Part shown: positions 2,410-48,232 of the stretch, piece by piece | Numbering within the stretch: position 1 is the stretch's first letter | Layout: every line of letters begins with the position of its first letter | Assembly: GCA_913047325.1 (NCBI GenBank) | Contig: CAJWTP010000005.1 | Span: 1 to 52,234 of the forward strand | Length of the DNA stretch: 52,234 nucleotides | Source: an uncultured Gammaproteobacteria bacterium | GTDB lineage: Bacteria; Pseudomonadota; Gammaproteobacteria; PS1; Pseudothioglobaceae | Direction of reading: 5' to 3' | Translations under genes and position numbers: made by a program | The notes under the pieces: model-generated | What the model was told of the DNA's origin: nothing | Databases searched by the model: none | Seen by the model: only the letters and a program-made list of their open reading frames with translations

Positions 2410-3060
2410 TTATCTGCCTTCTGCTTCACCCCATAGGATTTTGTGAAGTTGCAGCTGGAGGCGGACATTGAGCTGCCCCTCTAGAATCCACTCAGCCAGT
2501 TCCGTTGGATCTAAGCTCTCATAGACGGGTGAAAAAAGAACCTCCGCTTCGGTGTTGTGTTTTTCCATTAGATTACAACACCAAACAAAGTCTTCCCTTG
2601 AAGCAATAACAAACTTTAACTGGTCCTTGGCCTCCAGCAAAGCAATGTTTTCGTACCTGTTTTGCCTTGCTTCCGTGGATGACGGGGTCTTGATGTCCAT
2701 CACCACGGAGACGCCCCTGTTGATCTGTGAAATATCAATGCTGCCGCTCGTCTCCAGCGAAACCTGGCAGCCTTTTTCTACCAGGGAGTCGAGCAATATG
2801 TGGCAGTTTTTTTGCGCCAGCGGCTCTCCCCCGGTGACACAGACATGGTTTGTATTGTATACCTCAATCTGTTTTATAATACCCTCTACGGTTAACGGGT
2901 TGTTGCCCTTGAAGGCGTAGGTTGTATCACAATAATTGCACCTCAACGGGCAACCTGTTAGGCGCACAAAGACGGTAGGAATGCCGACCTCTCTGGCCTC
3001 CCCCTGGAGGGAATAGAATATCTCCGTTATATTGAGCGTTTTACTACTTAAACTGTCCAT
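2410..3060 (-). CDS. queE: 7-carboxy-7-deazaguanine synthase QueE
   Basis: Radical-SAM enzyme turning 6-carboxytetrahydropterin into 7-carboxy-7-deazaguanine, a step of queuosine synthesis. 216 residues. The cluster motif is C37PLRC41NYC44 and is followed by DTTYAF. The N-terminal [11 protein letters not shown] and the TGGEPLAQ segment are QueE hallmarks, and the end [12 protein letters not shown] fits the family C-terminus. The first 17 bases overlap the end of uvrB on the same strand, so the two are probably cotranscribed and translationally coupled. No other queuosine gene is in the window. Confidence 0.93.
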
Positions 3061-5050
3061 CCTTTAACTCTTTTATTTGGTTACGTATATCGGCGGCCTG
3101 CTCAAACTTAAGCTCTTCTGCGTATTTATACATTTGCTTCTCGAGGCTTTTCAGTTCCTTCGCCAGCTGCACAGGCGAAAGATTACGATGCACTATCTCC
3201 ATACCATCCTCGTCCATCTCGCCTACCGACAAATCGGTATCCAGTATGTTGACGATCGGCTTGACGACCCCTTTTGGTATTATGCCGTGTTTGTCATTGA
3301 AATCCTGTTGCTTATTTCTCCTCCTGGTGGTCTCGTCGATTGCCCTCTGCATCGAACCTGTTACTCTGTCAGCATACAGTATAACGGCACCGTTTATATG
3401 CCTGGCGGCGCGACCCATGGTTTGAATGAGTGAACGTTCAGAGCGCAGGAAGCCTTCCTTGTCAGCATCTAGAATTGCAACCAGCGAGACTTCGGGAATG
3501 TCCAGCCCTTCACGGAGCAAGTTAATGCCCACCAGAACATCAAAAACGCCCAGCCTCAGGTCACGAATAATCTCCACCCGCTCTACCGTATCGATATCCG
3601 AATGGAGATATCTGACCTTGACATTGTGGTCGTTGAGATAGTCGCTCAGTTGCTCTGACATTCGCTTGGTGAGAGTGGTAACGAGAACCCGCTCCTTCAG
3701 CGCGACTCTTTTATTTATCTCTGAGAGTAAATCGTCCACCTGGGTCTCCACCGGCCTTATGGAGATCGCCGGGTCCAGCAGACCGGTCGGCCTTACAACC
3801 TGCTCGGCGATGACCGTGGATACCTTCAGCTCAAAATCCGCAGGGGTGGCGGAAACCATGATGCAATGCTTTACCCGCTCGGTAAATTCATCAAACCTTA
3901 GAGGCCTGTTGTCGAGCGCCGAGGGGAGACGAAAACCAAAATCCACGAGAGTTTTCTTGCGCGACCTGTCACCGTTGTACATGCCACCTATCTGACTCAC
4001 GCTAACATGCGACTCGTCAAGTATAACGAGCGCATCATCGGGCAAATAGTCCATCAAGGTGGGCGGCGGCTCACCCTCCTTTCGGCCTGACAGGTAGCGC
4101 GAATAATTCTCGATTCCAGAGCAATAGCCTAGCTCTCTCATCATCTCCATATCGAGCATAACTCTTTGCGAGAGGCGCTGGTCCTCGACCAGTTTTTGTT
4201 CAGCGATTAGCTCTTTTTTGCGCTTGGCGAGTTCCAGCTTGATGTCGTCCAAGACATTCAGTATGGTCGATTTCGGGGTCACGTAGTGGGTCTTTGGATA
4301 GACCGTTATGCGTTGGAGCGGTTTCAGTTTCTCGCCGGTTAGGGGGTCGAACCAGTACAGCCTCTCGACCTCGTTATCGAACATCTCGACCCTTATCGCC
4401 CTTTCCTCGGAGTCCGCCGGAAAGATGTCGATAACCTCCCCTTTTACTCGAAAAGTGCCGCGCATCAGCGTCACATCGTTCCTAGTGTATTGCATTTCTG
4501 CGAGCCGGGAAAGGATCTCCCGTTGATTGGTAATTTCGCCGACGCTCAGATGCAGGAGCATTTTCATATAACTGTCCGGATCGCCCAGACCGTATATCGC
4601 TGAAACGCTGGCAATGATGATGACGTCCTTCCTCTCCAGTAGGGCTTTTGTGGCAGACAGGCGCATCTGCTCGATCTGCTCGTTGATGGAGGAGTCCTTC
4701 TCGATATAGGTGTCGGATGCAGGAACATAGGCTTCGGGCTGATAATAATCATAGTAGGAGACAAAATACTCCACCGCATTACTCGGAAAGAACTCCTTCA
4801 TTTCGCTGTAGAGCTGCGCCGCGAGAGTTTTATTCGGCGCCATTATGAGGCTCGGCTTTTGGCTTTTCTCTATCACATTGGCAAGGGTAAAAGTCTTGCC
4901 GGAGCCGGTGACTCCCAAAAGGGTCTGGTACTTGGCGCCTGAATTGATGCCCTTCATCAATTGATCTATCGCAGTCGGCTGGTCACCTCTCGGCGAGAAA
5001 GCTGATTCTAGTTGAAATTTTCTAGCCATTAGTTGAAATTTTCTGGCCAT
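3044..5050 (-). CDS. uvrB: Excinuclease ABC subunit UvrB
   Basis: DNA-damage recognition helicase of nucleotide excision repair; receives DNA from UvrA and recruits UvrC. From the chosen start it has 668 residues (E. coli 673). Walker A is GVTGSGKT, the beta-hairpin region reads [12 protein letters not shown], the Walker B region is [10 protein letters not shown], and the C-terminal UVR helix pair ([22 protein letters not shown]) closes the protein. The N-terminus carries two tandem copies of MARKFQL encoded by a 21-base repeat, so starts at 5050 and 5029 both give a normal UvrB. An in-frame ATG at 5107 would add 19 residues unlike any UvrB and is disfavoured. Neither start has a clear ribosome site, and no LexA box is evident upstream. 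Confidence 0.95.
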
Positions 5051-5110: not shown

Positions 5111-6286
5111 ATGTCATCAATTCTGTCAAATCGAGTTCAAAAAGTAAAACCTTCCGCAACAATGGCTGTCACCGCAAAAGCCAATGAATTGAAGGCGCAG
5201 GGAATTAAAGTTGTACCTATGGGTTCCGGGGAGCCAGACTTCGACACCCCGAGCAATATCCAAAAAGCCGCTGTAGACGCGATCAGGGGCGGACAAACCC
5301 GCTATACCGCGGTAGACGGCACAGCTCAGCTAAAGAGCGCGATATGCGATAAATTCATGCGCGACAACGAGCTCGAATATAGCGCCAATGAGGTGATGGC
5401 CTCTTGTGGCGGAAAGCAGGTCTTCTATAACCTCTGCCAGGCCATCCTCGATGAGGGTGATGAGGTCATCATACCTGCACCCTACTGGGTCTCATATCCG
5501 GATATGGCCATTCTCGCAGACGCCACTCCGGTGATTATCGAGACTGACCTTGACCAGGACTTTAAGATCACCCCAAAGCAACTCGAATCCAGTATCACCG
5601 AAAAATCCAAACTATTAGTGCTAAACAGCCCCTCAAACCCTACCGGAGCGGTCTATACAAGGGAAGAGATCGAGGAGCTCGGCAAGGTGCTGGAGAGGCA
5701 CCCTCAGGTTTATATAATCAGCGACGATATTTACGAGCATATTCTTTTGGGCGATGACGATTTTGTCAATATCGCGATGGCATGCCCGAAACTAAAAGAC
5801 AGAACAATTATCCTCAACGGCGTCTCTAAGGCCTACGCTATGACGGGCTGGAGGATAGGTTACGCCGCAGGTCCAGAGGATATCATCAAGGCCATGAAAA
5901 AGATCCAAGGGCAATCAACCTCGAACCCGACATCCATTGCCCAGGCAGCCGCTGTCGAGGCTCTTAACGGCGATCAAGCATTCATCGAAACCATGGTTGA
6001 AGCTTTCGAGCAAAGACACGATTTTCTGCTCGAGAGCTTGAACGCAATTGAGGGTATCGAGTGTCCTAGATCGAGCGGTGCATTCTATTCATTCCCAAGG
6101 GTCCAGGGTCTTATCGATAGACTAGGCCTCATTGATGATGTAGACTTTGCAACTTACTGCTTAGAAAAGCTCAATATCGCGCTAGTTCCGGGTTCAGCTT
6201 TCGGAGCCCCTGGATATGTGAGGTTCTCTTTTGCGACCAGTATGGACAATATCAAGGAAGCGGTAGAGCGTTTAGCAAACGCCTAG
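5111..6286 (+). CDS. Class I pyridoxal-phosphate aminotransferase, aspartate aminotransferase type
   Basis: 391 residues, fold-type I aminotransferase of the Ib (thermophile/rhizobial AspAT) type. Visible are SNPTG at 174-178, the PLP lysine K240 in [14 protein letters not shown], and the substrate-carboxylate arginine in YVRFSFATS near the end. It most likely interconverts aspartate and oxaloacetate with 2-oxoglutarate/glutamate. Related enzymes also act on aromatic amino acids or prephenate, so specificity is not fixed. It starts 60 bases from the divergent uvrB start and lies 22 bases upstream of an aldehyde dehydrogenase, suggesting an operon with the next two genes. Confidence 0.88.
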
Positions 6287-6308
6287 CGCTATAAATTAGG
6301 AGAATATT

Positions 6309-7736
6309 ATGTTGGATAAAAGAAAATTCTATATTAACGGTGAGTGGGTCGATGCTTCAAACAAGAACGATCTCGATGTCATAAACCCGTCGGACGAGAG
6401 TGTCTGCGCGATCGTTTCTCTTGGCTCTCAAGCTGACACCGATGCTGCGGTTGCCGCGGCAAGAGCGGCGCTGCCCTCTTGGTCGATTTCAACTAAGGCA
6501 GAGAGAATAGCGCTACTGGAAAGACTCTATGACATCTATGAAAGAAGGATGGACGATATGGCACAGGCCATCTCAATGGAGATGGGCGCGCCGATTGACT
6601 TCTCTAGGGCATCGCAGGCGACCTCCGGCACAAATGCCATTAAAGAGTTTCTTAGGCAGCTTAAAAAATTCGAGTTTGAAGAGCCCCTCGATGACTCTGA
6701 CAATAGACTGATCTATGAACCCAAAGGGGTCTGCGCACTTATTACGCCCTGGAACTGGCCAATCAGTCAGGTCGCGCTTAAGGTCATCCCTGCCATCGCT
6801 GCCGGCTGCACGATGGTCCTGAAGCCTTCTGAACTAGCTCCTCTGGATTCAATGATCTTTGCTGAAATGCTCGACGAGGCCGGATGTCCGGCTGGCGTAT
6901 TTAACTTGGTCAATGGCGACGGCGCAGGTGTCGGAAGCCAGCTGACCTCTCACCCGGACATCGACATGATCTCCTTCACGGGATCCACCAGAGCGGGCTC
7001 GCTCATCTCTCATAACGCGGCGGACGACTTCAAGAGGGTTGGACTGGAGCTCGGCGGCAAGGGCGCCAACATTATTTTCGCCGATGCAGACGATAATGCG
7101 GTCAAGAGAGGCGTCAGGCACTGCTTCAACAACGCTGGACAGTCCTGCAATGCACCGACAAGAATGCTGGTAGAGCGCTCCTATTACGACAAGGCAGTCG
7201 AAATAGCCAAACAGACTGCAATCTCTACGAGCGTCGATATCGCATCAAAGCAGGGAAAGCATCTTGGCCCGGTTGTCTCGCAACTGCAGTTCGACAAGAT
7301 TCAAGGACTCATTCAGGCCGGCATTGACGAGAACGCAACTCTGGTCGTAGGCGGCGCTGGAAAGCCCGAGGGTTTAGAGACCGGCTATTTCGTCAAGCCG
7401 ACTGTCTTTGCCGACGTCGACAACCAAATGACGATCGCGCAGACTGAAATCTTCGGCCCGGTACTGTCCATGATTCCATTCGACAGCGAAGAGGAAGCTA
7501 TCGAGATCGCCAACGACACGCCATACGGCTTAACCAACTATATCCAGACCCAGGACCCGGAAAAAGCCAAACGCGTTTCTAGAAGGATGCTTTCAGGAAT
7601 CGTCGAGGTAAACGGCAAGAGTTCTGCCAGCGGCGCGCCGTTTGGCGGCTACAAGCACTCTGGAATTGGTCGCGAGAATGGCGAGTTTGGGCTCAAGGAG
7701 TTCATCGAAGTCAAGGTGGTGACTGGCTGGAGTTGA
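6309..7736 (+). CDS. NAD(P)-dependent aldehyde dehydrogenase
   Basis: 475 residues, oxidises an aldehyde to its carboxylic acid. The general base E247 lies in LELGGKGANIIF and the catalytic cysteine C280 in GQSCNAPTRM. The cofactor loop FTGSTRAG (223-230) and the TPWNWP motif are intact. AGGAGA lies about seven bases before the ATG. Placed between an aminotransferase and an M81-family gene, it probably handles an aldehyde in the same small catabolic route, but the substrate cannot be read from sequence. Confidence 0.9.
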   Translation: MLDKRKFYINGEWVDASNKNDLDVINPSDESVCAIVSLGSQADTDAAVAAARAALPSWSISTKAERIALLERLYDIYERRMDDMAQAISMEMGAPIDFSRASQATSGTNAIKEFLRQLKKFEFEEPLDDSDNRLIYEPKGVCALITPWNWPISQVALKVIPAIAAGCTMVLKPSELAPLDSMIFAEMLDEAGCPAGVFNLVNGDGAGVGSQLTSHPDIDMISFTGSTRAGSLISHNAADDFKRVGLELGGKGANIIFADADDNAVKRGVRHCFNNAGQSCNAPTRMLVERSYYDKAVEIAKQTAISTSVDIASKQGKHLGPVVSQLQFDKIQGLIQAGIDENATLVVGGAGKPEGLETGYFVKPTVFADVDNQMTIAQTEIFGPVLSMIPFDSEEEAIEIANDTPYGLTNYIQTQDPEKAKRVSRRMLSGIVEVNGKSSASGAPFGGYKHSGIGRENGEFGLKEFIEVKVVTGWS

Positions 7737-10054: not shown

Positions 10055-10933
10055 ATGACCACTAGACAAATCCTTTTAGCGCTCATCGTTCCAATCACCT
10101 GGGGTTTTGGCTATGCCCTGACAAAGATTGGCATGGACCAGTTCCCCCCTTTACTGCTTATGTCGCTGCGTTTCGGTATCGCGGGTTTGGTACTGGTATG
10201 GTTTACCAAGCCGCCATGGGAATATATGAAGGATCTCTTTATGGTCGCCTTTATAGGTTCGACGATACAGTATGGGCTCACCTACTATGGACTGAAGGGC
10301 ATTGACGTATCGACAGCTTCCATTCTGGTGCAGCTTGAGGGTCCTATTCTGGCGCTCCTTAGCACCATTATCCTTAAAGAGAGGCTTGGCTGGCCTAGAG
10401 CATTGGGAATGGGACTCGCATTTGCCGGTGTCGTCGTCATTGCCGGCGAGCCGAGACTAAGCGATAGTCTAGACAGTGTCGCCCTGGTGATATCAGGCGC
10501 AGTTTTCTGGGCGATAGCGCAGATCATGATTAGCCGCCTCAAGTCACTCTCGGGCATCACCATACTGGCCTGGGTTGCGGTCATCGCGGCGCCGCAAATG
10601 CTGCTGATATCGCTAGTCATCGAGGAGGGTCAGTGGCACTCCATCGTCAGCGCCAGCCTTGTCGACTGGTCGATAGTGTTCTACTTGTCCTTTATCATGA
10701 CAGTTGTGGGCTACAGTATCTGGTACCACCTCCTGCGGATCTGCGATGTCAGCAAGATATCGCCCTTTCTGATGCTCTTGCCGGTCACCTCCATTATTGC
10801 CGGCATAGCGCTTCTTGAGGAGCAATTCACGCTCGCTATGGGAATCGGCGGGGTACTGGTAATGACCGGCGTTGCCAGCACTCTTGTCAACTGGCGAAGA
10901 CCTGTCAAAACAACTCTAGCGGGAAAGCGATAA
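10055..10933 (+). CDS. EamA-family (drug/metabolite transporter superfamily) exporter
   Basis: 292 residues with ten predicted membrane helices arranged as two EamA repeats (about 1-135 and 147-280). The first begins LIVPITWGFGYALTKIGMDQFPPLLLMSLRF and carries EGPILALLSTIILKERLGWPR; the second repeats the pattern with LLPVTSIIAGIALLEEQF. Such proteins usually export amino acids or other metabolites; the substrate is unknown. It begins 27 bases after the terminator, so it is a separate unit. It ends eight bases before the convergent small gene. Confidence 0.9.
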   Translation: MTTRQILLALIVPITWGFGYALTKIGMDQFPPLLLMSLRFGIAGLVLVWFTKPPWEYMKDLFMVAFIGSTIQYGLTYYGLKGIDVSTASILVQLEGPILALLSTIILKERLGWPRALGMGLAFAGVVVIAGEPRLSDSLDSVALVISGAVFWAIAQIMISRLKSLSGITILAWVAVIAAPQMLLISLVIEEGQWHSIVSASLVDWSIVFYLSFIMTVVGYSIWYHLLRICDVSKISPFLMLLPVTSIIAGIALLEEQFTLAMGIGGVLVMTGVASTLVNWRRPVKTTLAGKR

Positions 10934-14564: not shown

Positions 14565-15422
14565 ATGGACATCAGTATTACAGAACTGGACGACTATCTT
14601 AAAAGGACTGAAAGTAGTATTCGCGCGCTGCGCTCGGATTGCGAAAAAAAGATCGTCTGGGCGAGTGAGCCGGGCGTTAAATCCGGTACCAGCGTGGTCT
14701 ATATCCATGGCTTTTCAGCGACCCGCTTTGAGTGCTCGCCGGTCATCGATATGGTGGCCGAGAAGCTCGGGGCGAATCTCTTTTTTACTAGACTCAGAGG
14801 TCATGGCCAGGACGGCAGAGCTCTGGGCGAGGCTAGCTTCGATGAGTTCATGGAGGATACCCTCGAGGCGATCGAGATCGGCAATACAATCGGCGATGAG
14901 GTGATAGTTGTCGGCTGCTCGACAGGTTGCTCTCTAATCCATCTTACCCTCAGCCAAGGAGTCAGCATTAAGTCGGCAATCTATATCTCGCCGAACTTCG
15001 GGCCAAAGTCTCTGATGGGCCAGTCACTGCGCCTGCCTGGAGCAGAATTTTTTGTACCGCTGATATTCGGCAAGACGCACTCGTTCATACCGAAAAACTC
15101 AGAACACACCAGATGCTGGACAACCTCGTACCCGACAAAGGCGCTGTTCGTGGTAAGAGACACGGTACTCGCCGCTCACCAAGTAAAGCATCGCGAAATA
15201 ACCACGCCGATGCTGTTCTGGTTTTCCGATGAGGACAAAATAGTTAACGCTGAATGGACACGCAGAATCGCCTCAAAGATGGGCATCAATGTGACCCTCC
15301 ACAACCCGACGCTCACCGACCAGGACGATCCATCACATCACTGCATTCTTGGCGACATTCTGAGCCCTTCCCAGACCGAGAAGGGGGTGGAAAAGATCCT
15401 CAACTGGCTGTCGCGCAGCTGA
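14565..15422 (+). CDS. Alpha/beta hydrolase
   Basis: 285 residues. The oxyanion region is YIHGFSATR, and the nucleophile elbow GCSTG places S119 as nucleophile. SDEDKIVN supplies the acid (D222 or D224) and DDPSHH the histidine (H258 or H259). Closest in layout to serine aminopeptidase/monoacylglycerol lipase-type hydrolases, but no substrate is evident. No strong ribosome site is seen. Confidence 0.85.
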   Translation: MDISITELDDYLKRTESSIRALRSDCEKKIVWASEPGVKSGTSVVYIHGFSATRFECSPVIDMVAEKLGANLFFTRLRGHGQDGRALGEASFDEFMEDTLEAIEIGNTIGDEVIVVGCSTGCSLIHLTLSQGVSIKSAIYISPNFGPKSLMGQSLRLPGAEFFVPLIFGKTHSFIPKNSEHTRCWTTSYPTKALFVVRDTVLAAHQVKHREITTPMLFWFSDEDKIVNAEWTRRIASKMGINVTLHNPTLTDQDDPSHHCILGDILSPSQTEKGVEKILNWLSRS

Positions 15423-43998: not shown

Positions 43999-44193
43999 TC
44001 AACCGCAGGCGCCGCCGCAACGGCTGCGAATGATGATCTCCTTGGCGACGGGATAGCTGACGTTGAACTTGCGCGCCAGATGCTCCAGGCTCTTGTGCTG
44101 ATAGGTGTAGAGCATTATCATCATATAGGTTTCATCGTCGCTGACGAGGGCGATATTGTTGTCGTGCTTGAAAGATTTTTGCCCTCTTGCCAT
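43999..44193 (-). CDS. Small putative helix-turn-helix protein, function unknown
   Basis: 64 residues. YQHKSLEHLARKFNVSYPVAKEII looks like a helix-turn-helix; the tail RSRCGGACG carries two cysteines. An extended -10 promoter stands about 53 bases upstream, supporting expression. The ribosome site is weak. It may be a small regulator; no family recognised. Confidence 0.55.
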   Translation of the reverse strand: MARGQKSFKHDNNIALVSDDETYMMIMLYTYQHKSLEHLARKFNVSYPVAKEIIIRSRCGGACG

Positions 44194-44521: not shown

Positions 44522-45121
44522 CTATCTGACCAGATTGTTCCAGCTCCGCAGGAAGGCCTGTTCGGCGGCGAAGAGCCACTCATAGGGCATGTCTTTCTTA
44601 ATGATGCGTTGCCCAATAATGAGAATGTGTTCAGGGTTCAGCTCAATTATCTCCTCAGCCTGCTCCAGCGATTCGACCTGGATGAAGGCATCGATGGTGA
44701 GGTTGGAGAGGATCTCAATAGGAACTACCATGGAGTTCTTGTGAGCGTGATTGACGACGGAGTTCAGGAATCCAACTGGGGTTGAATAATCAAAGCGATG
44801 ACAATCCGTTTCCCCAGCAATACAGGAACTTTCGATGATAGCTTCGCTAAGCGTTTCGTCAGAAGTTTCAGGAAGAGTTTCGATAGTTGTTTCAATGGTT
44901 GTTTCGATAGTTGTTTCAAGAGCAGATTCAAGAGGGATTTCTATCGTCGTCTCAACTGAAGGCTTGATGGTGCTGTCTGTAATCTCAATAAAGGTTTGCT
45001 TATCTGTTTCGCTCGGCGCATCAATGTTTGGAGTTAAACAGGAAGCAATGAACACAACCAATGCAAGGCAGGATATTTTGGTTGCTAGTTTAAAAGCTGT
45101 ACGAGTAAGTGAGTTCAGCAT
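44522..45121 (-). CDS. Putative lipoprotein with acidic Thr-Ile-Glu-Thr repeats
   Basis: 199 residues. A long signal segment ending in the lipobox IASC28 suggests a lipid-anchored envelope protein. Residues about 57-86 form a low-complexity linker of ETTI repeats, encoded by imperfect 12-base repeats near 44870-44930. A C-terminal domain (about 100-199) with C100 and C107 follows and is not recognised. The gene starts 32 bases inside the end of the protease gene, with no ribosome site, so translation is probably coupled. Probably a partner or substrate of the protease (inference). Confidence 0.7.
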   Translation of the reverse strand: MLNSLTRTAFKLATKISCLALVVFIASCLTPNIDAPSETDKQTFIEITDSTIKPSVETTIEIPLESALETTIETTIETTIETLPETSDETLSEAIIESSCIAGETDCHRFDYSTPVGFLNSVVNHAHKNSMVVPIEILSNLTIDAFIQVESLEQAEEIIELNPEHILIIGQRIIKKDMPYEWLFAAEQAFLRSWNNLVR

Positions 45122-47513
45122 CTAGTTTCGGGTTGTCTGACGATGTCACAAACCCTAATTTTATATCTTTATAGGCCATCCCGAGATAACTTGAGTGAAC
45201 AATTTTTGAGTCTATTGAGTGATTTTGATTGTTAGCTATGGTGTGTTTGAGGGCCAGGGTTAAATCATCCTTTAGATCCTTTTTATAGGAAAAACCGTAA
45301 TTTAGCTGTCTGCCGTTTGGCTCAAGGTCGACATTCTTGGTGCTATAGCTGATATTTCTAGAGTGGTCTGCCAGACTAGGGAGCTTTATCGCAAGCGAAC
45401 CGTCATTGACCCTATTTGGCTGGGAGACAAATAGTGTGAACTCGTCACTGTCTGTGAGGTCCTTTACGCTGGCAAGAAGCACAAGGCTGGACGACTTGAC
45501 GTCAGTTGCGGGGCCGACAAAACTGTTATTTGGACTTGTCATGTCGCTCTTTGCGACACTCGCCAGACCAATCAGTAAAAACTTATCCAGAAGCTGTTTT
45601 TGAACCTTTAGAGTGCTAAATTTTGTCATTGTTTCGGCCCCGGAGAGCGAGAAAGCGTTAAACCCTTTGGAACCAAGCAGCGCTCCCTCTTCCCTTGTTA
45701 GGCCTGCCATCAATGAAATTGAACCATTCTGTGGGTCGCCATATGCTATCGAGCTGACCAGGGTTTTGTTTGAACCAAGCACCTGTCCAGAATAATTCTC
45801 GATCGGCATTGCCGCGCCAAACGACAGCACAGCGTCTGAGAGTCTGTAGCTTGCACCAACACCAATACCAGCGCTGTCTGAACTGAGATAGCTTGTTTCG
45901 TATTCAGATAAGTCAATCGAAGAGATGGCCGAGTCATAGAAGTCGTCTATTGGCAATGGATTGTTACCAAGACTTATTGAAGCGTTTAGTCTGGCAGAGG
46001 AATTCCTATTTGCATGATTGATGCTTGATATTTTGCTCAGATTGCTAAGTTCAGAGGCAAGGTCGATCTTGGAACTCGTATTTTTTAGCCGACTGATGTG
46101 ATAACTCATGTCATACCTGAAGCCGCCACCGAGGTCGTCATAGGTGTAGCCGTTCTCTCCGACAAGACCTCTTAGCACTGAGTTGCCTAGCGCGCTTGAG
46201 GTGAAGAGCTTCGAGTTCTGCAACTGGTAGGAGTCATCGCTATCTGATGAGCTGCCGGTATATACCCTCGTATAGGCCGAGCTAGTGATCGGGTTAAGGG
46301 CGGCATAGATGTCCATAATACCGTGCCCAAACTCATCGTCATAGCCGTGCTCTACTCCGTTACCGAAAGTCACCGCAGCGTCATGGCTAAAGAATGAATT
46401 GTCGGCTGATGCCAGGAGCCTGTCGGTCAGCTGGGCAGGCGTGTGGTTCGGGAAAGCCTCCGCCAGGAGCGCCACAGCGCCGGAGATCTGCGGGGCAACA
46501 ACCGATGTGCCAGAGATGCCAGCCCAGTAACTGCTGGTATTGGAGTTGTCATAGGCGGCTCCAACAACCTGATAGCCGTCGGCCCCTAGGCAGTATTTTG
46601 CAGTGGACCCGCAGGGGGCGGATTTCCTGGTGTAGGTTTCGTTGCCGGAGGAACCGGTAATCTCGACATTAACGGCCGTTATCCAGGCTTCCTCGAGCTG
46701 AGAAAACAGTTCCGGCAGCGCGGCCTGGAAATCGGCATTGGTAAAGGATGTGTTATTCGAGAGCGCATAGACTATGACGCCGTGGTCCTGGAAATTGTTG
46801 AGTGCGGTAATATATGAAGTAGCTGAAGCTTCATTTGCAGTGTAGCCGCTGGAATTGAACTTTTGCCCTATGCCGTAAGCATTGCTCCAGCCATTGGAAG
46901 TGATATCTGACTGAAGTGAATCTATTTGGTAGTCTACTCCCCAGCTGTTGTTTTGAACTACCGCTGAGCTGGCATTGTCGGTGGCATTGGCCCAGTGAGT
47001 TGGATAGTAGGTGTTGCCGTTGCGCTGATCGTAGCTTGCCCAATGCAGATTCGCCGCTGGGGCAACGCCTTGCATGCCGCTACCGTCATCCTCTCCAGTC
47101 GCTACACTTGCCACGATCAAGCCATGATCATCAGTAGCATTGTCGCCAGTCGCAGCCGTTTGAGTTCCATACTGGGTGATGGTTTTGGAGTCAAGTTCAT
47201 TGTGGCTGGTACTGAAACCGGTGTCGATGATGGCGATTGTCTCTCCTGAGCCTGTCAGGCCGTAGCCGTAGGCTTTGTGGGCATTGATTACTTTGAGCGG
47301 GTTTTGGCTGCTGGCAGCGCCTGAGTAGTTGAAATATTGAAACTCGCTGGTATCTGCCAATGCTGTTGCGTTAGATGAGCTGTAAGTCAGCGTCGTGCCA
47401 TTGTCCAGCGTCCTGTCTGTTGAGGTGACAACAACGCTTGAACTCCCTCCTCCAAAACAACCGGTCAGCGTGATTGCTAGAAGAGCAATCCTGAGTTTGC
47501 CAAGTTGGTGCAT
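45090..47513 (-). CDS. Subtilisin-type (S8) autotransporter lipoprotein, NalP-like
   Basis: 807 residues. A lipobox TGC19 after a short signal peptide, then a glycine/serine linker. The S8 protease domain (about 75-415) has D97 (IIDTGFS), H130 (DDHGLIVAS) and S337 (GISGTSVVAP), with asparagine in ALSNNTS for the oxyanion hole. From about 510 the sequence becomes beta-strand-rich and ends ELTYSYSF with a C-terminal Phe, as expected for an autotransporter barrel in the outer membrane. Lipobox plus S8 plus barrel is the plan of Neisseria NalP, which trims other surface proteins. ATG directly follows the upstream stop (TAG-ATG). Confidence 0.88.
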   Translation of the reverse strand: MHQLGKLRIALLAITLTGCFGGGSSSVVVTSTDRTLDNGTTLTYSSSNATALADTSEFQYFNYSGAASSQNPLKVINAHKAYGYGLTGSGETIAIIDTGFSTSHNELDSKTITQYGTQTAATGDNATDDHGLIVASVATGEDDGSGMQGVAPAANLHWASYDQRNGNTYYPTHWANATDNASSAVVQNNSWGVDYQIDSLQSDITSNGWSNAYGIGQKFNSSGYTANEASATSYITALNNFQDHGVIVYALSNNTSFTNADFQAALPELFSQLEEAWITAVNVEITGSSGNETYTRKSAPCGSTAKYCLGADGYQVVGAAYDNSNTSSYWAGISGTSVVAPQISGAVALLAEAFPNHTPAQLTDRLLASADNSFFSHDAAVTFGNGVEHGYDDEFGHGIMDIYAALNPITSSAYTRVYTGSSSDSDDSYQLQNSKLFTSSALGNSVLRGLVGENGYTYDDLGGGFRYDMSYHISRLKNTSSKIDLASELSNLSKISSINHANRNSSARLNASISLGNNPLPIDDFYDSAISSIDLSEYETSYLSSDSAGIGVGASYRLSDAVLSFGAAMPIENYSGQVLGSNKTLVSSIAYGDPQNGSISLMAGLTREEGALLGSKGFNAFSLSGAETMTKFSTLKVQKQLLDKFLLIGLASVAKSDMTSPNNSFVGPATDVKSSSLVLLASVKDLTDSDEFTLFVSQPNRVNDGSLAIKLPSLADHSRNISYSTKNVDLEPNGRQLNYGFSYKKDLKDDLTLALKHTIANNQNHSIDSKIVHSSYLGMAYKDIKLGFVTSSDNPKLDAELTYSYSF

Positions 47514-47762
47514 CTAAACCTTGTTTTGATCGGCATTGTAGAATGGGTCTGTCGACCTGACATGGGCATTAAAATCCTTTAGCCACTTTAGAGCTGTATC
47601 GGCCTTGTCGAGATGACCATGAACCATTTTTGCTACCTTGTTGTCGACAAAACGATCATTGCTTTCATTACTCTCACCAAATGGAAGCTCCATTTGTTCT
47701 GGAAACAGATTCTCTTCGACAACATCGATATTCTCTATTTCTTTTGATTTGACTTTTGACAT
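47514..47762 (-). CDS. Small acidic protein of the protease operon, function unknown
   Basis: 82 residues, acidic and probably disordered at the N-terminus (EIENIDVVEENLFPEQMELPFGESNES), then a helical part (NKVAKMVHGHLDKADTALKWLKDFNAHV). No signal peptide. The ATG directly follows the stop of the RHH gene and its stop abuts the protease ATG, so it is tightly coupled to both. Could bind the RHH protein; unproven. Confidence 0.72.
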   Translation of the reverse strand: MSKVKSKEIENIDVVEENLFPEQMELPFGESNESNDRFVDNKVAKMVHGHLDKADTALKWLKDFNAHVRSTDPFYNADQNKV

Positions 47763-48038
47763 CTACCCCTCCTCCTTGTTTGGTTTTGATTTTTTCCGCG
47801 TCTTTCCTACATTTGAGCGAGAAGAGCCACCCTTTAATGGCACCTCATAGTCCTTCTGCCACTCCTGTATCGCATCTTCTAATGCGCTTTCAAAGACGCC
47901 GGCAAGCGACATGCTGTAGCCGTGCTTTTGTGCCGCCTTAGATGCGCCCTTGAAGGATTCAAAGAGCGCCCTTCTGATGCGCACGCTGACCACCCTTTTT
48001 TCATCCAGCTTGCGCGTTTTGGTTACGTATTTACCCAT
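47763..48038 (-). CDS. Ribbon-helix-helix DNA-binding protein
   Basis: 91 residues. Beta strand RVVSVRI, helix ALFESFKGASKAAQKHG, turn YSMSL, helix AGVFESALEDAIQEW: a ribbon-helix-helix fold; basic tail with KKSKPNKEEG. Likely the repressor of this operon, acting at the palindromes upstream. First gene of four. Confidence 0.8.
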   Translation of the reverse strand: MGKYVTKTRKLDEKRVVSVRIRRALFESFKGASKAAQKHGYSMSLAGVFESALEDAIQEWQKDYEVPLKGGSSRSNVGKTRKKSKPNKEEG

Positions 48039-48060
48039 TGATTTGATTTCTATTTATTTT

Positions 48061-48070
48061 TTGTATACAA
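48061..48070. promoter_or_regulatory. Proximal palindromic operator of the RHH-protease operon
   Basis: TTGTATACAA, a perfect 10-bp palindrome, just downstream of the operon -10 and over the expected transcript start. Confidence 0.6.
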
Positions 48071-48099
48071 ATTATAATACATATTTATTACATAGTAAA
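48071..48099 (-). promoter_or_regulatory. Promoter of the RHH-protease operon
   Basis: Minus strand TTTACT (48099-48094), a 17-base spacer and TATAAT (48076-48071). Start expected near 48064, inside the proximal palindrome. Confidence 0.65.
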
Positions 48100-48118
48100 G
48101 TTATATTTGTAATATATT

Positions 48119-48128
48119 TTGTATACAT
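48119..48128. promoter_or_regulatory. Distal palindromic operator of the RHH-protease operon
   Basis: TTGTATACAT, nine of ten bases shared with the proximal site, 58 bases away centre to centre. Confidence 0.5.
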
Positions 48129-48232
48129 ATTGACTAGTGCAAAATAAGCTAACTAACTGACAAAAAATAATATGCACATCTTTTTGGAGTTTTTTTTGAA
48201 AAAGGCTGGATTATTTGTATTACAATGCGAGC

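Follow-up and report, generated by a model that had tools for sequence, protein, structure and literature searches.

The stretch analyzed here (the window) comprises positions 1 to 52,234 of contig CAJWTP010000005.1, from an uncultured gammaproteobacterium (1.66-Mb genome, 90% complete) whose relatives in named collections are "Candidatus Thioglobus" and Pseudothioglobus (SUP05 cluster, Thioglobaceae). Its minus strand carries a tightly packed row of four genes, encoding a basic protein resembling ribbon-helix-helix (RHH) proteins, a small partner protein, a lipidated S8 (subtilase) protease, and a lipoprotein. As shown by genome comparison, this row is a fusion, specific to the strain, of two gene pairs that are otherwise independent: an RHH-like pair typical of the genus and a protease-lipoprotein pair that landed behind it. 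The latter pair is the new finding. Its lipoprotein belongs to an undescribed all-alpha family and has, in our judgment, an even chance of being a lipid-anchored external chaperone and inhibitor of the protease.

The features of the row, with the evidence in brackets, are as follows (ORF, open reading frame; aa, amino acids; pLDDT, predicted local distance difference test).

48117 to 48127, minus strand: TGTATACAAAA operator-like site, upstream of the -35 element (motif search)
48071 to 48099, minus strand: sigma-70-like promoter TTTACT-17-TATAAT of the RHH operon, now probably reading into the protease pair (10/12 matches)
48059 to 48069, minus strand: TGTATACAAAA operator-like site, downstream of the -10 element (motif search)
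47763 to 48038, minus strand: RHH-like basic protein, first gene, 91 aa (ORF; genus-wide ortholog set)
47514 to 47762, minus strand: small partner protein, the "small acidic ORF" of the preliminary description, 82 aa (ORF)
47514 to 47537, minus strand: fusion junction, the 24 bp between the small gene's last conserved codon and the protease ATG (ortholog comparison)
45090 to 47513, minus strand: lipidated S8 protease, 807 aa, triad D97/H130/S337 (ORF, Pfam, alignment)
45105 to 45989, minus strand: C-terminal region of the protease, about 12 to 15 long beta strands and a C-terminal Phe, a probable outer-membrane beta barrel (AlphaFold2 model, pLDDT mostly 63 to 97)
44522 to 45121, minus strand: lipoprotein, 199 aa, lipobox IASC28, cognate partner of the protease (ORF, comparison)
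44804 to 45037, minus strand: strain-specific tether of the lipoprotein, residues 29 to 106, with TTIE-type repeats and no Arg (comparison with relatives)
44525 to 44803, minus strand: conserved all-alpha partner domain of the lipoprotein, residues 107 to 199, ending in Arg199 (pLDDT of ~94)

A strain-specific fusion of two gene pairs

All four ORFs are real, and their spacing was confirmed: the ATG of the small gene touches the stop codon of the RHH-like ORF, the protease ATG touches the stop codon of the small gene, and the lipoprotein gene overlaps the end of the protease gene by 32 bases. The preliminary description had read this layout as one system in which a DNA-binding protein and an acidic partner control a surface protease and a possible substrate. 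Tight packing behind a single promoter with TGTATACA sites does make cotranscription likely in the window strain, where the protease pair is probably under RHH control. However, no other Thioglobaceae genome searched has the four-gene order. Genomes with both pairs carry them on separate contigs or, in the one-contig genome G006, 474 kb apart, and the protease, found in 19 of the 58 genomes searched, mostly lies near a glutamine amidotransferase-like gene. Since it never follows the RHH-like gene elsewhere and the pairs are so far apart, the four-gene order is seen a single time. Both the small protein and the lipoprotein show conservation at the protein level, but in separate loci, and the acidity of the former is not conserved (isoelectric point [pI] of 4.9 to 9.6 across orthologs). 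A dedicated four-gene system, with the RHH-like and acidic proteins regulating protease and substrate, is thus very improbable and, as a conserved system, largely refuted; what stands of the proposed control is at most a new cotranscription in the window strain.

The RHH-like protein was matched in 22 of the 83 family genomes and the small protein in 16, and most genomes of the host genus carry the two genes once, as a pair. At the relatives' loci that were read, the pair mostly lies between an EamA transporter gene, in tail-to-tail orientation, and an alpha/beta hydrolase or PhyH gene, and never beside a protease. An attractive gene neighborhood is thereby corrected as accidental: within the genus, the regulator pair is nothing out of the ordinary.

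The position of the join can be read from the small gene. Its orthologs end in ...SVDPFYK* or ...SIDPFYK*, whereas the window copy continues as ...DPFYNADQNKV*, with the protease ATG at the next base. Because the frame runs past the ortholog end up to this ATG, the join falls within 24 bp (47537 to 47514), and the gene's own stop codon has been replaced. In the same genome, contig C21 holds the ancestral neighbors of the protease pair (a 90-aa gene at 2138 to 2410, a gene at 2536 to 3354, and an amidotransferase-like gene at 5925 to 6650) without a protease, and the gap from 2410 to 2536 is empty. Genome G008 has the protease pair exactly between the first two of these neighbors. With the site empty on C21 and occupied in G008, the pair was either relocated or lost there and regained in the window.

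That the two pairs were joined by misassembly is very improbable: the assembly is fragmented (93 contigs), the join is seen in one genome only, and the window RHH pair is more divergent than its neighbor genes (~30% identity of the small protein to its orthologs, against ~70 to 90% for EamA), but the EamA gene (10055 to 10933) and the RHH pair, neighbors in relatives, still lie in the ancestral orientation to each other, with 36.6 kb between them on this contig, the ancestral protease site is empty in the same genome, and the small gene stays open to end exactly at the protease ATG.

The protease and its lipoprotein partner

The lipoprotein occurs in 11 of the 83 Thioglobaceae genomes and adjoins the protease in all 10 with a readable contig. 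Beyond the family, a single-copy member lies directly downstream of the protease at loci L123 to L126 (SAR11 and other alphaproteobacteria) and at L127 and L128 (gammaproteobacteria), with offsets of -4 to +25, and a further member was found at L176. Across Thioglobaceae, SAR11, and other Proteobacteria, the overlap or gap between the two genes ranges from -32 to +25 nucleotides (nt), and adjacency holds in 17/17 occurrences with both sides readable. The proposed surface S8 protease with an anchored partner finds support, and further classes of Proteobacteria have it too, with the RHH pair unlinked elsewhere. The lipoprotein family was absent from 273 other sampled gammaproteobacteria and from 288 further genomes belonging to the class of G363, and it was not found on plasmids. 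No description of the pair was found in the literature searched, a search made largely outside subscription journals.

The protease was the only product of the four genes with a significant Pfam match (PF00082; E = 2.8e-23). Its lipobox Cys19 is invariant in 12 Thioglobaceae proteases, the catalytic triad D97/H130/S337 is conserved, and the protease domain begins with residue 88, some 70 residues past Cys19. Neither Inhibitor_I9 nor any other propeptide model matched among 24 family proteases, so that the protease has no recognized propeptide; it may contain a short, unrecognized one. The AlphaFold model (pLDDT of 85) is closest to the passenger of the autotransporter Ssp (8e7f; profile E = 2e-34; structure Z = 36.6, root mean square deviation of 2.9, 313 residues aligned). 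Mirolase is also a top structural match, and the Aeromonas protease ASP (3hjr) is the second-best Protein Data Bank (PDB) sequence match of the protease profile; a match to the EprS model falls far below the cutoff. In the model, long strands follow one another from residue 509 to residue 803 and the last residue is Phe, which would fit an outer-membrane barrel, but this region matched no Pfam autotransporter model and, by profile search, nothing in the PDB up to E = 10. Because no barrel model matched, the autotransporter call is likely, not proven. The label "NalP-like" thus holds for the lipidated S8 passenger and the C-terminal strands, though not for a recognizable barrel, and the protein is likely a lipidated S8 autotransporter. 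The arrangement of an S8 passenger ahead of a C-terminal region of beta strands is shared with the subtilase autotransporters NalP, SphB1, Ssp, EprS, and fusolisin, of which NalP and SphB1 are lipidated (PMC9977779). No cognate lipoprotein is described for these five in the literature searched.

The lipoprotein is under purifying selection (pairwise omega of 0.14 to 0.18). Its conserved part of about 95 residues is predicted to be all-alpha (pLDDT of ~94), and 15 of the 18 members end in Arg, mostly as ...L-x-R or ...LR; one of the three others has a frameshifted tail. The residue at lipobox position +2 is Leu or Ser. The repeats noted in the preliminary description are present (an imperfect 12-bp repeat, 3.4 copies at 44877 to 44917), but the TTIE-type repeat linker of about 78 residues is private to the window strain; in relatives the lipoprotein has about 131 aa and lacks these repeats. 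Searches against Pfam and PHROG gave no match at a meaningful E value, and those against NCBIfam gave chance matches only.

In G006 the protease is split into two ORFs. In G009 the pair has decayed, with many stop codons in the protease and one in the lipoprotein (decayed and split protease loci: L044:8209-11066 and L043:7961-10737). Given this decay and split, the pair is an accessory function that is readily lost.

Possible roles of the lipoprotein

In most accounts, autotransporters require few helper proteins, and it is poorly understood what keeps a surface protease from digesting its own cell while being exported. The unnamed lipoprotein family, linked to surface proteases of abundant uncultured ocean bacteria, is a testable candidate for a dedicated chaperone and inhibitor. 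The nearest precedent for such a role is in Aeromonas sobria, where the S8 protease gene asp is immediately followed by orf2. ORF2 is required for maturation of ASP, described as propeptide-deficient (structures 3hjr and 3wqb), places its C-terminal Lys at the catalytic center, and inhibits the enzyme with a half-maximal inhibitory concentration of 84 nM (PMC5638518). The marine pair shares with ASP/ORF2 the partner gene directly downstream of an S8 protease gene, the lack of a recognized propeptide, and a partner ending in a basic residue, here an Arg that by analogy would sit in the active site. Unlike in ASP/ORF2, the protease carries a lipid and probably a barrel, and its partner, itself a lipoprotein, shows no detectable similarity to solved chains. 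Lipid anchoring has its own parallel in the potempins of Tannerella forsythia, small lipoproteins that are reported to inhibit specifically the neighboring KLIKK protease, S8 enzymes included (PMC7296668; PMC4404884). As in the mirolase-potempin C complex (8ehe), a small lipoprotein adjoins its protease and could inhibit it; unlike the lipoprotein gene here, the potempin gene lies upstream of the protease gene.

A chaperone/inhibitor acting as an in-trans prodomain is favored, at about even chances, because the downstream gene, the basic C-terminal residue, the lack of a recognized propeptide, and the lipid anchor combine traits of ASP/ORF2 and the potempins. The surface protease would then work together with the product of the next gene, a lipid-anchored helper. 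This helper would bind the folding protease at the outer membrane and assist its folding, while its C-terminal ...L-x-R-COOH would block the active site in a product-like manner, as a prodomain supplied in trans. Its displacement or degradation would release or display the active protease. In the window strain, the pair has left its ancestral site and stands directly behind the RHH operon, presumably under that operon's promoter and likely autoregulation.

Several observations weigh against this view. The distant gammaproteobacterial members at L127 and L128 end in RSK and NNS rather than Arg. The fold search was uninformative (best Foldseek E of 2.8; VIA Z of at most 3.7), and the lipoprotein profile, run against the PDB up to E = 10, found neither ORF2-like nor any other solved chains; as homology could not be demonstrated, the lipoprotein was not filed in the ORF2 family. 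In addition, a related Thioglobus clade (~43% identity; G002, G003, G006, G011, G020, G024, and G025) keeps the protease and its triad and has no lipoprotein, which argues that the helper is not universally needed and is dispensable in some lineages. Among residues separating partnered from partnerless proteases, only E292, D371, and G223 stand out; they are not independent of phylogeny and were not used.

A prodomain role is also hinted at by long S8 proteases of SAR11 and other alphaproteobacteria, which carry an N-terminal domain ahead of the protease domain. When a hidden Markov model (HMM) of the lipoprotein was run against 5586 reading frames, the best nonself matches included this N-terminal region (L122, domain E of 0.07; L159, 0.19; then L145, L134, L137, and L139). 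In the reverse search, HMMs of the two N-terminal region types each returned a member of the lipoprotein family as top nonself match (L111, 0.013; L176, 0.034). Aligned by hhalign, the lipoprotein scored 26.3 and 23.0 against the N-terminal regions, compared to maxima of 17.5 and 18.1 over 60 column shuffles; the hhalign probabilities of 18% and 8% count against the resemblance. No lipoprotein gene was present in the checked genomes with such long proteases. These weak but reciprocal matches are suggestive of the same module occurring in cis in the long proteases and in trans as the lipoprotein. A tentative extension, somewhat doubtful on present evidence, is a split prodomain: the cis N-terminal domain of long SAR11 proteases would correspond to an outer-membrane lipoprotein made separately, its C-terminal Arg capping the active site, with the trans form in Thioglobus, some SAR11, and other marine Proteobacteria. 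If true, folding and inhibition of an autotransporter protease would rely on a dedicated lipid-anchored partner, here moved into a regulated operon.

Alternatively, the lipoprotein could serve as a scaffold or structural subunit, perhaps cleaved in addition, to anchor and stabilize the protease at the surface, with the active site left unblocked. We consider this unlikely. The model would be dentilisin (PrcB-PrcA-PrtP) of Treponema denticola, an acylated S8 protease encoded in one operon with two lipoproteins needed for the complex, one of which is cleaved in a PrtP-dependent manner; the system is reported to be unique to oral spirochetes (PMC8167434). An acylated S8 protease in one operon with a lipoprotein is common to both, and the long repeat tether of the window strain could be an exposed or cleavable stalk. 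However, the dentilisin lipoproteins are encoded upstream, and PrcA is much larger. The invariant feature of the marine lipoprotein is its C-terminal end and not a cleavable linker, relatives being almost linker-free, and with its own conserved lipobox the protease needs no extra anchor.

A biogenesis helper, which would promote insertion of the barrel or passenger into the outer membrane or its exposure at the surface and would not bind the active site, is quite unlikely. The autotransporter SadA is displayed properly on the surface only with the lipoprotein SadB (PMC3953254), and the lipoprotein studied here is found only with the protease. The SadA/SadB and RadD/FAD-I pairs likewise combine an autotransporter or autotransporter-like protein with an operon-encoded small lipoprotein (PMC3953254; PMC7023056), but SadA and RadD are adhesins rather than proteases, and FAD-I acts on the radD transcript level. 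SadB is an inner-membrane lipoprotein with Asp at position +2, in contrast to the Leu or Ser here. Moreover, the weak similarity described above lies N-terminal of the protease domain in the longer proteases and not in barrel-associated parts, and one protease clade needs no helper.

The control region and side observations

The first gene of the row encodes a protein with a pI of 10.0, whose window copy is without a segment of about 20 aa present in orthologs. Its RHH assignment is a pattern call with a fold unconfirmed by any profile: among 17 orthologs, no Pfam RHH model scored above threshold, and a BrnA antitoxin match (0.084) appeared in one. Palindromic TGTATACA sites flank the promoter of this gene, and the window contains 2 TGTATACAAAA sites where 0.02 are expected. 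In relatives, GTATAC sites precede the RHH-like gene at similar positions. This pattern suggests that the RHH-like protein regulates its own promoter through candidate TGTATACAAAA operator sites and that the protease pair of the window strain now likely shares this promoter and its putative autoregulation. A mobile or phage origin of the RHH pair was considered and rejected, with no relative found in viral contigs or plasmids. An Rfam search found no RNA element.

Between the EamA gene and the RHH pair (window 10934 to 47513) lie a relocated hydrolase gene (14565 to 15422) and ABC-transporter genes, and the PhyH gene at window position 48215 is inverted relative to relatives. Given the relocated hydrolase and the inverted PhyH gene, this region is a rearrangement hot spot. 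A conserved 64-aa protein with no assigned function (81% identical) is encoded at window positions 43999 to 44193 and at L085:5506-5700, near the PhyH gene in both.

Another Thioglobaceae genome (G031) contains a diversity-generating retroelement at L046:469-7046 (C1:8468-15045). It comprises a 183-nt repeat pair (4558 to 4740 and 5320 to 5502) whose 14 differences are all at A residues of the second copy, a bAvd-like gene (PF22296; E = 4.8e-15), a reverse transcriptase gene (PF00078; E = 4e-18), and as its target a repeat surface protein of >1400 aa. The element lies directly upstream of an S8 protease gene (PF00082; E = 2.1e-54), a stretch that has a second match of equal score 47 kb away. 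This protease gene is followed, with an overlap of 1 nt, by an ORF of 99 aa (L046:9210-9509) whose start resembles a lipobox and for which no similarity to the lipoprotein family was noted; it is possibly an unrelated partner in the same position as the lipoprotein.

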